A stretch of DNA of 64,000 bases from Bacillota bacterium (lineage in GTDB: Bacteria > Bacillota > Clostridia > Tissierellales > MES13). Position numbers and translations under genes: made by a program. The stretch covers positions 1-64,000 of the forward strand of contig VEND01000097.1 in NCBI GenBank assembly GCA_009711765.1, in the 5' to 3' direction. This document shows positions 5,857 to 37,127 of this stretch, in pieces; the stretch's first letter is position 1, and each line of letters starts with the position of its first letter. Under the pieces are notes generated by a model that ran no database searches, was not told where the DNA came from, and saw nothing but the letters and a program-made list of their open reading frames with translations.

Positions 5857-5989
5857 TATTTAAATTAGTTTGCTGTTAAATTCAATAGATTGTATATTTA
5901 GAGGCGTAAGTCTCTTTTTTTTTGTAAATATATTAAGTACATTTAGTTTAATATTTTCTATGATAAAATATATTTTAGGGGGGTTTAAT

Positions 5990-6802
5990 GTGAATAAAAA
6001 AATTAATGCAATGTATTTTAGTGCTACTGATACTACGAAAAAAATAGTAACAGGTTTAGCTAAAAATATTTCCTATAAATTTGATAAAAAAATACATAAA
6101 GAAATAAATTTTACATTACCTAAAATTAGAAAAAAATCAATAATTTTCACAGAGGAAGATATTGTTGTTATAGGAGTTCCAGTTTATGCAGGAAGAGTTC
6201 CTAATGTATTGCTTAGATATTTAAACTCAATTAAAGGTAATAATTCATTAGCAATTCCTATTGTTGTTTATGGTAATAGAAATTATGATGATGCATTAAT
6301 AGAATTAAAAGATATTCTTAAGTTAAATGGATTTAATATTCCTGGGGCAGGAGCTTTTATAGGGGAGCATTCATTTTCTAAAAAACTTGCTAAGGATAGA
6401 CCTGATGAGAAAGATATGGCTATAGTAAATGATTTTTCTAATAAAATATATAAAAAAATAAGTGAAAATAAAATAAAAAGGGTAATTGTAAAGGGAAATA
6501 GACCCTATAGAAAGTATTATATGCCTAAAAATGAAAAAGGAAATCCCGTTGATATAAGAAAAGTAACTCCAAAATTAAATAATAATTGTATTGATTGTAA
6601 ACAGTGTGTAGATCTTTGTCCTATGGGTTCTATTTATTTTAAAGATGTATCTAAATTAAATTATATCTGTATTAAATGCGGGGCTTGTATTAAAAAATGT
6701 CCTACTAATGCAAGATATTATGATGATAAGGATTATTTAAAGCATAAATATGAATTAGAATTAGAATTTAAAGAAAGAAAAGAACCTGATATATTTATAT
6801 AA
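5990..6802 (+). CDS. EFR1-type flavodoxin-like protein with two 4Fe-4S clusters
   Basis: Flavodoxin-like N-terminus YFSATDTTKKIV; CIDCKQCVDLCP and CIKCGACIKKCP; GTG start after GGGGGG SD. Confidence 0.85.
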   Translation: MNKKINAMYFSATDTTKKIVTGLAKNISYKFDKKIHKEINFTLPKIRKKSIIFTEEDIVVIGVPVYAGRVPNVLLRYLNSIKGNNSLAIPIVVYGNRNYDDALIELKDILKLNGFNIPGAGAFIGEHSFSKKLAKDRPDEKDMAIVNDFSNKIYKKISENKIKRVIVKGNRPYRKYYMPKNEKGNPVDIRKVTPKLNNNCIDCKQCVDLCPMGSIYFKDVSKLNYICIKCGACIKKCPTNARYYDDKDYLKHKYELELEFKERKEPDIFI

Positions 6803-6858: not shown

Positions 6859-8808
6859 ATGTATAAAACAATTGGTATATTAGCCCATGTAGATGCAGGT
6901 AAAACTACATTTTCAGAGCAACTTCTTTATCATACAAAGAGTATTACAAAAAGAGGAAGAGTAGATCATAAGGATTCTTTTTTAGATAGTCATGAGATAG
7001 AAAAAGAAAGAGGAATAACAGTATTTTCAGATCAAGCTATAATGAATTATAAAGATTCAAGGTATTATTTAATAGATACTCCTGGCCATGTGGATTTTTC
7101 ACAAGAAATGGAAAGATCAATTAAAGTAATGGATTATGCTATCGTTTTAGTTAGTGCAGTAGAAGGTATTGAAGGGCATACAGAAACAGTTTGGAATCTT
7201 TTAAAGAAACATAGGGTGCCAACTTTTTTCTTTATTAACAAAACTGATAGAGTTGGTTCTGATGTAGAAGGAGTATTTAAAGAAATTAAAAAAAATTTTA
7301 CTAAGGATGTTTGTGATATAACAAGTTCTTATAAACAGGGTGAAATTAAAGATAAACTTAAGGAATTTATTGCAGAACGGGATGAGTTATTACTTGAAAA
7401 ATATTTAATGGAGAGTTTTGAAAAAGAATTATGGTTAAGTAAAATGAAATCGATGATTAAAGAAAATAGAATTTTTCCATGTTCTAAAGGTTCTGCCTTG
7501 AAAGATATTAATATATTAGATTTTTTTAATAAATTTAATGAGTTAACTACTACAACATATTCAATAGATAAACCATTTTCAGGACAAGTTTATAAAATAC
7601 GTTATGAAAATGAAACAAGACTAACTTATATTAAAGCTTTAAGTGGAAAATTAAAGGTAAGGGATGAATTAAGCTATGTCTATAAAGGTAATTCAATTGA
7701 AGAAAAAATCACTGAAATTAGATCCTATAGTGGAGATAAATATAATATAGAAAACGAAGTAGTAGCAGGGCAGTTATTTGCAGTAACAGGGTTATCCAAT
7801 TTAAATACTGGAGATTTCTTAGGAACTTTAAAAGAAAAGGCAAATTATAAAATAATTCCAACCTTAAAATCTAAGGTGATATACGGTAAAGATATAAATG
7901 AAAAAAAAGTTTTTAATATTTTTAAAATATTAGAAGAGGAAGATCCCTCTTTAAATGTAATATGGGAGAAAGAGTTAAAAGAAATACATATTAAAGTTAT
8001 GGGAACTATACAATTAGAAGTGTTAAAACAATTGGTGAAAAAAAGATTTGATTTAAAAGTTGAATTTGGTTTGCCTGAAATAATATATAAAGAAACTATA
8101 AATACAACGGTAAAGGGTTGTGGTCACTTTGAACCTTTAGGTCATTATGCTGAAGTTTATCTTAAGATAGAACCAGGAAAAAAAGGAAGTGGAATAGAAT
8201 TTGAAAATGCTTGTCATGCTGATCATTTAACAATAGGACATCAAAATTTAGTAAAGCATCACATCTTTGAAAGAGACCATAAAGGCTTATTGACTGGTTC
8301 AGCTTTAACTGATATAAAGATAACTTTACTAACAGGACGGGCACATAATAAGCATACCAGTGGAGGTGATTTTAGACAGGCAACCTATAGAGCATTAAGA
8401 CAAGGGTTAGAAAAAGCAAAAAATATATTACTTGAACCATATTATAATTTTAAAATTAAAATAGATTTAGACTATATGGGAAGAGTAATATCAGATATAC
8501 AAAATGCATGTGGGAATTTTGATTCTCCTAAAACTATAGGTGATAAGACTATAATAACAGGAAAGGTACCAGTAGCTACCTTTATGGATTATAGTACAAA
8601 GTTAGCTTCATTTACCCAAGGTAAAGGGATAATAAATTTAACCTTTGCAGGTTATTATCCCTGTCATAATCAAAGGGAAGTTATAAAAAGAAAAGGATAT
8701 AATAAAAATGCAGATCCTAATTACACATCATCTTCTATATTTTGTTCAAAGGGACAAGGCTATACAGTAACTTGGGATAAAGTAGAAGAAAAAATGCATA
8801 GTTTATAA
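6859..8808 (+). CDS. EF-G-like translation GTPase of the Tet(M)/ribosomal-protection superfamily
   Basis: GILAHVDAGKTTFSEQLLY, DSHEIEKERGITVFSDQA, DTPGHVDF, NKTD. Confidence 0.9.
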   Translation: MYKTIGILAHVDAGKTTFSEQLLYHTKSITKRGRVDHKDSFLDSHEIEKERGITVFSDQAIMNYKDSRYYLIDTPGHVDFSQEMERSIKVMDYAIVLVSAVEGIEGHTETVWNLLKKHRVPTFFFINKTDRVGSDVEGVFKEIKKNFTKDVCDITSSYKQGEIKDKLKEFIAERDELLLEKYLMESFEKELWLSKMKSMIKENRIFPCSKGSALKDINILDFFNKFNELTTTTYSIDKPFSGQVYKIRYENETRLTYIKALSGKLKVRDELSYVYKGNSIEEKITEIRSYSGDKYNIENEVVAGQLFAVTGLSNLNTGDFLGTLKEKANYKIIPTLKSKVIYGKDINEKKVFNIFKILEEEDPSLNVIWEKELKEIHIKVMGTIQLEVLKQLVKKRFDLKVEFGLPEIIYKETINTTVKGCGHFEPLGHYAEVYLKIEPGKKGSGIEFENACHADHLTIGHQNLVKHHIFERDHKGLLTGSALTDIKITLLTGRAHNKHTSGGDFRQATYRALRQGLEKAKNILLEPYYNFKIKIDLDYMGRVISDIQNACGNFDSPKTIGDKTIITGKVPVATFMDYSTKLASFTQGKGIINLTFAGYYPCHNQREVIKRKGYNKNADPNYTSSSIFCSKGQGYTVTWDKVEEKMHSL

Positions 8809-9232: not shown

Positions 9233-9270
9233 GTTAAAATAAAATATATAAAAGAAAAGAAGGTGATTAA

Positions 9271-10401
9271 ATGACAGATAAATCTAAATCATGTTGAACT
9301 AGTAAAAAAGATACCTCTAGTTTAGAGGTTAAACTAAAAAATAAAATCACTCAAAAAGATGAAGTTATAGATAATAAATGGATTAAACATGCCTTTGATG
9401 GACATTTAAATACAAAAATAGGTTTAATAAAACGAATAAAAACTTATATTAGCTTAAAAGACAAATTATTAAATTCAGCAGTTAGATTAGGGGTTAATAG
9501 AAATAATTATAAAATACAACCTGGAATTTATGCAGTAGGTAACCCAAATGAAAGATCTCAAGTTTTAGTAACTTCAAATTATAAGTTAACCTTTGATGAA
9601 TTAAGAAAAAATTTATCTAGACTTGATGTTTGGATATTAGTATTAGATACTAAAGGAATTAATGTTTGGTGTGCTGCAGGGAAAGGGACATTTTCAACAG
9701 AGGAATTAATATATAGAATCAAAAAGCATAAAGTAGATAAACTTGTTGCCCATAAAAATTTAATACTACCGCAGCTTTCTGCACCAGGGGTTAGTTCATA
9801 TAAAGTAACTAAGTATATTGGTTTCAAAATAAATTATGGACCTGTTAAAGCAAGTGATATAAATAAATTTTTGAATAATAATATAACTAAAGATATGAGA
9901 AAAGTTACATTTAACTTAAAAGAAAGACTTTCAGTCACTCCACTAGAGTTTGTATATTCAGTTAAATATATTCCTTTTATAATATTATTTTTTCTTTTTT
10001 TAAATATATTATCAGGTAGTAGTTTAATTGATGGATTAAAGGATAGTATAATAAATATTGTACCTTATATAGGGGCAATTTTTATAGGAACTATATTGTT
10101 TCCTATGTTAATTCCAATTCTACCATTTAGGATATTTTCATTTAATGGTATATTATTAGGAATAATTTATTGTATAATACTGTTTAATAATAAATACATA
10201 TTATATGATAAACCCTTTTTATGGATAATTGGGAATTCTTTATTGTTAATATCCATAATTGCTTATTTAGCAATGAATTTTACAGGATCAACTACGTTTA
10301 CCTCCCATTCTGGGGTAAGAAGGGAAACAATAATTACAATACCTATATTACTTTTACTAGTCCTAAGTGGAATAATATTAATTATATTAAATGCTTTTTA
10401 A
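9271..10401 (+). CDS. hgcA: Mercury-methylation corrinoid protein HgcA, candidate selenoprotein (in-frame TGA 9295-9297 = Sec9)
   Basis: SD AGGTG; MTDKSKSC-U-TSKK...; cap-helix motif NVWCAAGK at 9661-9684; C-terminal multi-TM domain; followed by hgcB. No ATG/GTG/TTG in frame between the TGA and 9871. Confidence 0.85.
9313..9329 (+). promoter_or_regulatory. bSECIS-like hairpin in hgcA
   Basis: ACCTCTA-GTT-TAGAGGT, 7 bp perfect stem, loop starts with G, 22 nt between UGA and loop. Confidence 0.6.
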
Positions 10402-10413
10402 GGAGTGAATAAA

Positions 10414-10674
10414 ATGAGATATATAAAAGATATAGCAAATATAACCATGGATAAAGATAAATGTATAGGTTGTAAAATGTGTATTAAAGTATGTCCCCAT
10501 GGGGTATTTTCTATAAGTGAAGGTAAAGCTTTTATTAATTATAAGGATAAATGCATAGAATGTGGGGCATGTAGTAAAAATTGTCCTAAAGAAGCAATAA
10601 AGGTAAGTGCAGGTGTTGGATGAGCTTATGCTATTATAAAGGGATGGCTCACTGGAAGTGAGTCTTGTTGTTAA
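10414..10674 (+). CDS. hgcB: Mercury-methylation ferredoxin HgcB, candidate selenoprotein (in-frame TGA 10621-10623 = Sec70)
   Basis: Two 4Fe-4S motifs CIGCKMCIKVCPHGVF and CIECGACSKNCP; GVG-U-AYAIIKGWLTGSESCC tail with terminal vicinal Cys; directly downstream of hgcA; SD AGGAGTG. Confidence 0.87.
10646..10664 (+). promoter_or_regulatory. bSECIS-like hairpin in hgcB
   Basis: GGCTCAC-TGGAA-GTGAGTC, 7 bp stem with one G-U, G in loop, 29 nt between UGA and loop. Confidence 0.6.
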
Positions 10675-10698: not shown

Positions 10699-10746
10699 AA
10701 AAAGAGCTATCAAAATGATTTTAAAACATTTTGATAGCTCTTTTTT
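10699..10746 (+). terminator. Intrinsic terminator after hgcB
   Basis: AAAGAGCTATCAAAATG...CATTTTGATAGCTCTTTTTT. Confidence 0.85.
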
Positions 10747-14199: not shown

Positions 14200-14340
14200 T
14201 TTAAAACCTCCAATTAATTTTATTTTAATTTATATTATTCTTATATGAAATTAATAGTGTGAAAGAATAAGAAGAAAGTTTACACATACCACTCTGGGGT
14301 ATATATTTTATAACATAAAAATTAAGGGAAGGTGTTAAAT

Positions 14341-15294
14341 ATGGTAGCAAATTTATTAAAGGGAGTTAAAAAAGGTTTACCCTTTTTATTATTAGTATTT
14401 ATAGTTTTGGGTTTGATATTTGGCTATTATACAAATCCTAGTTTTCTAAAAAATTATGTAACTATAGTTTTATTTATTATGATATATCCTATGATGATAA
14501 ATCTAAAAGTTACTGATGTTTTTAAAAGTTTTAAAAATAAAAAGGCAATAGCATTAAGTTTAGGGATAAATTTCATTATAGTTCCTATAACAGCATTTTT
14601 ATTAGGAAAAATATTTTTTAGTGATGAGCCTATGCTACTTACAGGTATAATATTAATAGGATTAATACCAACAAGTGGAATGACAGCTTCATGGACGGGG
14701 CTTGCTAAGGGTAATTTAAAGCTTTCTTTAGTAATGATTTCTATAAATTTATTAATTTCTATTTTAATAATACCATTATATATGAAATTATTTTTAGGAA
14801 AGTTAATAACTATAAATACATTTATAATTTTTAAAAGTCTATTTAAAGTAGTAATAATCCCATTAATATTAGGGGATTTAACAAGAAGGCTTTTAATAAG
14901 GAAATATGGTATTAAAGGTTATAAAGATATAAAACCTAATTTTAGCGGAATAAGTTCTTTAGGTGTATTAGCTATAGTTTTTATTGCAATGGCTCTAAAA
15001 AGTAAAACTATAATAAATCAACTTAATTTAGTATTATTATCTATAATACCATTAATCATTTTATATATTATTATAATATTTATTTCTCATTTTCTTGGCA
15101 ATAAATATTTATCTAATAAGGATAAAGTTGCTTTAGTGTATTCTACAACAATGAGAAATTTAACTATAGCTTTAGGGATTTCATTAGCATCTTTTGGAGA
15201 GAGTTTAGCAGTATTTTTAATTGCAATAGGCTATATAGTACAGCTTCCTATTGCAGCTTATTATATGAAAAGGTTTAGTGTAAAACAAAGTTAA
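14341..15294 (+). CDS. ACR3/bile acid:Na+ symporter superfamily membrane protein (arsenite efflux-like)
   Basis: Multi-TM, IGLIPTSGMTASWTGLAKGN and TTMRNLTIALGISL motifs. Confidence 0.75.
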   Translation: MVANLLKGVKKGLPFLLLVFIVLGLIFGYYTNPSFLKNYVTIVLFIMIYPMMINLKVTDVFKSFKNKKAIALSLGINFIIVPITAFLLGKIFFSDEPMLLTGIILIGLIPTSGMTASWTGLAKGNLKLSLVMISINLLISILIIPLYMKLFLGKLITINTFIIFKSLFKVVIIPLILGDLTRRLLIRKYGIKGYKDIKPNFSGISSLGVLAIVFIAMALKSKTIINQLNLVLLSIIPLIILYIIIIFISHFLGNKYLSNKDKVALVYSTTMRNLTIALGISLASFGESLAVFLIAIGYIVQLPIAAYYMKRFSVKQS

Positions 15295-36990: not shown

Positions 36991-36997
36991 TGACACG

Positions 36998-37078
36998 CCC
37001 CTGGAGAGACCTATAAAGGGCATCGAAGAAGCAACTTACAGTTTAATGTAGGGAAACTTTCAGATAAAAGGACAGGGA
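36998..37078 (+). ncRNA. Glycine riboswitch-like aptamer 2
   Basis: CCCTGGAGAGACC...GGGCATCGAAGAAGCAA...GGGAAACTTTCAGATAAAAGGACAGGG. Confidence 0.85.
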
Positions 37079-37127
37079 ATAAATTAGCATAGATTAGTCT
37101 ATGTTAATTTATTCCCTGTCTTTTTTT
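37071..37127 (+). terminator. Riboswitch expression-platform terminator
   Basis: GACAGGGAATAAATTAGCATAGA-TTAG-TCTATGTTAATTTATTCCCTGTC followed by T7; overlaps aptamer-2 P1 3' strand. Confidence 0.85.

Follow-up and report, generated by a model that had tools for sequence, protein, structure and literature searches.

HgcA is a corrinoid methyltransferase, and HgcB is a dicluster ferredoxin that re-reduces HgcA. In the pair from Pseudodesulfovibrio mercurii ND132, for which SAM is the methyl donor (PMC11588087), the C73A substitution in HgcB abolished Hg methylation and the C94A/C95A double mutant lost 95% of it (PMC7305189). In the proposal of Cooper et al., Hg(II) is supplied by the C-terminal cysteine pair of HgcB, and CH3Hg+ is taken up by Cys73 (PMC7305189). 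Some hgcA and hgcB homologues are possibly selenoproteins (PMC11588087), and a review (PMC13188914), citing, as does PMC11588087, Haft & Gwadz 2023, J Bacteriol 205:e0025922, lists HgcA (NF040863, motif CU) and HgcB (NF040864, motif GVGU) as selenoprotein families.

Here we describe an hgcAB locus in a 64,000-nucleotide stretch of Bacillota DNA, referred to below as the window (Table 1). The best explanation of the locus, to which we assign a probability of roughly 0.8, is that hgcA and hgcB form a two-gene operon, that both products are selenoproteins, and that their selenolates take part in a soft-metal relay.

Table 1. Coordinates of the hgcAB operon, its regulatory and recoding elements, and other features of the window
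Feature	Position	Strand	Description and basis
EFR1-family flavodoxin/ferredoxin fusion	5870-6802		91 bits, cut-off 75; TTG start doubtful
Tetracycline ribosomal-protection-like GTPase	6859-8808		NF012153 451 bits, cut-off 775
Shine-Dalgarno-like AGGTG	9261-9265	+	upstream of hgcA; read directly
hgcA	9271-10401	+	376 aa with UGA as Sec; NF040863 389 bits, cut-off 275; PF03599 (CdhD domain)
In-frame TGA of hgcA	9295-9297	+	predicted Sec9 of HgcA, second residue of the Cys-Sec pair; sequence comparison
bSECIS-like hairpin in hgcA	9313-9329	+	ACCUCUA-GUU-UAGAGGU; loop 22 nt past UGA
Shine-Dalgarno-like AGGAG	10401-10405	+	upstream of hgcB; read directly
hgcB	10414-10674	+	86 aa with UGA as Sec; NF040864 118.3 bits, cut-off 99; translation
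In-frame TGA of hgcB	10621-10623	+	predicted Sec70 of HgcB, at the ND132 Cys73 position; translation, alignment; PMC7305189
bSECIS-like hairpin in hgcB	10646-10664	+	GGCUCACU-GGA-AGUGAGUC; loop 30 nt past UGA
Intrinsic terminator	10702-10746	+	16-bp inverted repeat, 9-nt loop, T run; operon end; read directly
ACR3/bile-acid-symporter-like transporter	14332-15294		127 bits, ACR3 cut-off 283; about 4 kb from hgcAB
Glycine riboswitch aptamer	36991-37085		53.5 bits

Two in-frame TGA codons in one operon

Translation of hgcB reproduces exactly the coordinates, frame, TGA and terminal Cys pair given in an earlier note on this DNA: 69 codons run from the ATG at 10414, the TGA is codon 70, and 16 sense codons follow before the TAA at 10672-10674. 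The assignment to HgcB in that note also holds, by the NF040864 score and by the presence of both 4Fe-4S motifs of the form CxxCxxCxxxCP (CIGCKMCIKVCP and CIECGACSKNCP); the remaining layout comprises GVGU, a helix and the C-terminal Cys pair (...SESCC). The proposed equivalence of Sec70 with the conserved extra cysteine is borne out by position, both Sec70 and ND132 Cys73 lying 13 residues past the last cluster Cys, and by an alignment of 41 HgcBs, in which all 41 sequences have Cys or Sec in this column. The alignment has 15 invariant columns, this one included, and the cysteines of the cluster motifs account for eight of them. The functional importance of Cys73 and the tail, stated in the same note, agrees with the C73A and C94A/C95A mutants (PMC7305189).

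If both TGAs were ordinary stops, as TGA is by default, HgcB would end after GVG and HgcA would be a remnant. Such a trimmed HgcB (69 aa from the ATG) would retain both cluster motifs. However, the in-frame peptide past the TGA (AYAIIKGWLTGSESCC) is conserved: 12-14 of its 16 residues are identical in five of six comparisons with other TGA-bearing HgcBs (7/16 in the remaining one, L033), a rate mostly higher than that for the 69 residues before the TGA, where 35-45 are identical to the same six proteins. This conservation, together with the Cys/Sec column of the alignment, confirms at the level of sequence that the frame beyond the TGA is not due to chance. Termination at both codons is also opposed by the otherwise invariant state of the Cys73 column, which is essential in ND132 (PMC7305189), by relatives having the same TGAs and hairpins, and by the loss of the HgcA corrinoid domain that it would entail in spite of the persistence of its invariant residues. 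We regard it as very unlikely.

The earlier note was correct on hgcB and incomplete on the operon, as it missed the second in-frame TGA, which lies in hgcA. This gene adjoins hgcB upstream, and its frame ends 12 bases before hgcB. With the TGA read through, HgcA begins MTDKSKSCU... and consists of an N-terminal Cys-Sec tail, a corrinoid-binding domain and a C-terminal membrane domain; its cap motif NVWCAAGKG, containing Cys134, conforms to the cap-helix pattern N(V/I)WCA(A/G)GK, in which the Cys ligates Co, and alignment shows that the invariant residues of the corrinoid domain are retained. Most Cys-form HgcAs have Cys-Cys pairs in the N-terminal tail. The first ATG, GTG or TTG past the TGA is found only at 9871, beyond the cap-helix Cys, so that without read-through no common start codon would allow translation of the corrinoid domain, and ordinary annotation misses this domain. 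The terminator behind hgcB is absent from the output of the scanner, which considers loops of at most 8 nt.

Several other features of the window are given in Table 1 as separate observations, including the ACR3-like transporter, the glycine riboswitch aptamer and the EFR1-family fusion. The GTPase gene upstream of hgcA appears to encode a relative of the Tet family; because its score is below the curated cut-off, a resistance function is unsure.

Selenocysteine machinery of the genome

The earlier note had called for a search of the genome for the Sec machinery, and all parts were found: tRNA-Sec (anticodon TCA), selA (644 bits), selB (400 bits) and selD (376 bits) are clustered on one contig (C8) of this low-GC, 3.83 Mb draft assembly of 180 contigs. 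The lineage is clostridia-like Bacillota, perhaps of the order Tissierellales. In the same genome, a UGA is present in selD itself (L016:10760-11830, ...TSGUAAK), and the gene for GrdA of glycine reductase contains a single internal TGA, at ...CFVUTAAGA. Given the complete tRNA-Sec/selA/selB/selD set and the UGA codons of SelD and GrdA, decoding of UGA as Sec is expected. As a side observation, SelD is a predicted selenoprotein for which ordinary ORF calling begins too late, at a TTG.

A genome-wide reassignment of UGA to tryptophan or glycine might be suspected from the window, where only one of the 45 ORFs of at least 200 aa ends in TGA. However, the use of 41 TAA against 3 TAG codons points to a mere low-GC stop bias, the TGAs of hgcA, hgcB, selD and grdA fall at cysteine or Sec positions, and a full Sec set is encoded. 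Reassignment can be given almost no credence.

SECIS-type hairpins

The published bSECIS consensus calls for a G at one of the first two positions of the loop and a distance of 16-37 nt after the UGA. Hairpins with these properties follow the TGAs of both hgcA and hgcB in the window. For comparison with homologues, we applied a strict definition: a stem of at least 6 uninterrupted pairs, a loop of 3-6 nt with G within the first two bases, and the loop located 16-37 nt past the codon. By this definition hairpins are present in 7/7 Sec-form versus 3/34 Cys-form HgcBs (Fisher 5e-6), and in the tails of 9/11 CU-HgcAs versus 1/24 CC-HgcAs (Fisher 7e-6), both values being uncorrected for relatedness. 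The two CU-HgcAs that fail the definition (L033 and L061) both have a bulged hairpin. The distance from the codon is near-constant, 29-30 nt in hgcB and mostly 19-22 nt in hgcA, and in hgcA the position is steady despite the lack of conservation in the tail sequence itself. After random synonymous recoding of the window stretches, an equally long stem arose in 3.1% (HgcB) and 4.5% (HgcA) of draws; one hairpin alone is therefore modest to weak evidence, and the strength lies in the set.

From the codons, hairpins and machinery taken together, we infer Sec insertion at both UGAs: each would be decoded by SelB and tRNA-Sec, aided by the hairpin that lies a short way beyond it within the reading frame.

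One Cys-form HgcB (L034) has a hairpin almost identical to that found after the Sec codons, perhaps left over from a time when this gene had such a codon itself, perhaps dictated by the conserved WLTGSEP peptide.

Distribution and exchange of Sec and Cys forms

Profile searches of Bacillota genomes identified about 50 HgcA loci, and 47 rows were used for the HgcA tree. These searches also revealed the six other UGA-bearing HgcBs, a class of relatives that the earlier note had suggested looking for. Every locus with Sec in HgcA, HgcB or both, 13 in number, falls into one HgcA clade (bootstrap 100, SH-aLRT 99), within which three combinations are observed: i) CU-HgcA with Sec-HgcB in the window, L018, L033, L056 and L057; ii) CU-HgcA with Cys-HgcB in L019, L029-L032 and L061; and iii) CC-HgcA with Sec-HgcB in L058 and L059. 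These mixed combinations inside the clade indicate that exchange between Sec and Cys at one site is not tied to exchange at the other, with at least four changes at the HgcB site and at least two at the HgcA site. L032, L033 and L061 form long branches, and their placement in the tree is unsure. In one other genome of the same genus, the only further one of the family examined, no HgcA match scored above the cut-off.

The TGAs and hairpins recur in genomes of other families and classes, a distribution that bears on whether a sequencing error or a recent pseudogene could have produced them. Each TGA is one base from TGT or TGC and the assembly is a fragmented draft, both compatible with such an origin; nevertheless, it would have to introduce a TGA twice into a single operon, both times at a cysteine position of homologues and ahead of a hairpin, and to repeat the same TGAs in distant genomes, which makes it exceedingly improbable.

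Three further observations concern the relatives. The HgcB tail in L056 (L056:2512-2800) contains a second TGA (HCD-TGA), where its sister L057 reads HCDC before the stop; this TGA is probably an ordinary stop. We considered additional Sec residues at this codon and at CC-TGA ends elsewhere, and set them aside, as an ordinary stop suffices. One genome (contig G357:C1) has two Cys-form hgcAB copies (L021 and L034) located about 107 kb apart. Two genomic matches in Chloroflexi and Spartobacteria MAGs, obtained with a seleno-HgcB motif pattern one N short between the CP motif and the Ala codon, were without hgcA or hgcB motifs and were rejected as chance.

Proposed function

In the HgcB model (mean pLDDT 82), Sec70 opens the helix 69-80, as described for Cys73. 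In the AF2 model of HgcA (mean pLDDT 89), residues 1-7 are the sole stretch below pLDDT 50, adjoining the Cys-Sec pair at 8-9, and among solved structures HgcA matched corrinoid iron-sulfur proteins only. Sec70 would occupy the site of the residue proposed as the CH3Hg+ acceptor, and Sec9 would be part of a Cys-Sec pair on a flexible N-terminal tail, supplying one more soft-metal site. Most likely, the two selenolates and the C-terminal Cys pair of HgcB would act as a soft-metal relay, for Hg(II) capture or for passing on the methylated product; this relay role is our inference, as is the expectation of tighter binding of Hg(II) or CH3Hg+ by the selenolates than by Cys.

The same selenoprotein pair might naturally act on arsenic, antimony, tin or some other soft element, with Hg methylation as a side reaction or absent; this proposal overlaps with the relay described above save for the substrate. 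There is no agreed native role for HgcAB, and the neighbourhoods of the 13 Sec-clade loci contain no conserved genes beyond hgcA and hgcB, hence no conserved metal-specific neighbour. A MarR-like regulator, its type judged from sequence, lies upstream of hgcA in three of these loci. In some loci, Cys-form hgcB is followed by a gene recognized from its sequence as that of an ACR3-like transporter (L044) or of a phosphatase resembling ArsC (L024, L050), hinting at a putative arsenic link of hgcAB in Bacillota. Against a different substrate, every HgcA and HgcB landmark is kept in the window proteins and both scores exceed the family cut-offs. We view another natural substrate as possible, though the less likely choice. 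Returning to the selenolate relay, a broader and tentative proposal, which we consider rather doubtful at present, is that the Bacillota Sec clade combines a mobile Cys-Sec HgcA tail with Sec at the Cys73 site as a relay tuned to the capture and release of a soft element, be it methylated mercury or a different one, and that surveys of hgcA relying on standard gene calling undercount this clade, the UGA depriving the genes of their start or their end.

Cys73 is essential for methylmercury formation while its role is unsettled, and a clade in which this position is naturally Sec in some members and Cys in others lends itself to testing whether the residue handles the metal. Under ordinary start and stop rules HgcA is left without its entire corrinoid domain and HgcB without its tail, and surveys of potential mercury methylators that are based on protein predictions can miss such genes. 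The present example is useful chiefly for showing the selenium-occupied sites and these gene-finding losses.

Comparison with known systems

The earlier note was aware of no characterised seleno-HgcB; as a prediction, however, such a protein already appears in the literature (PMC13188914, PMC11588087). The Sec-assisted organometallic (SAO) system of Haft & Gwadz 2023, as represented in citing work, resembles the present locus in involving organometal-related selenoproteins in clostridia and seems to differ from it, hgcAB here apparently standing alone. SaoC and SaoL model searches of the genome gave no match, and no control genome matched either.

The window operon shares with ND132 HgcA/HgcB (NF040863, NF040864) the gene order, the cap-helix Cys motif, the membrane domain, the two 4Fe-4S motifs, the extra Cys73 position and the C-terminal Cys pair. 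It differs in having UGA/Sec at the HgcB Cys73 position and an HgcA whose N-terminal tail carries a Cys-Sec pair. The predictions of Haft & Gwadz 2023 concern the same families and Sec motifs, and the window operon has CU and GVGU both; as far as can be judged from PMC13188914, the difference is one of organism only. It was worked out here that both genes occur paired in one operon, that the Sec loci form a single clade, that Sec and Cys exchange separately at the two sites, and how often hairpins accompany either form, the overlap with Haft & Gwadz 2023 being judged via citing papers. Seleno-HgcA and seleno-HgcB have thus already been predicted as a kind, and the window provides a further clear example of it.
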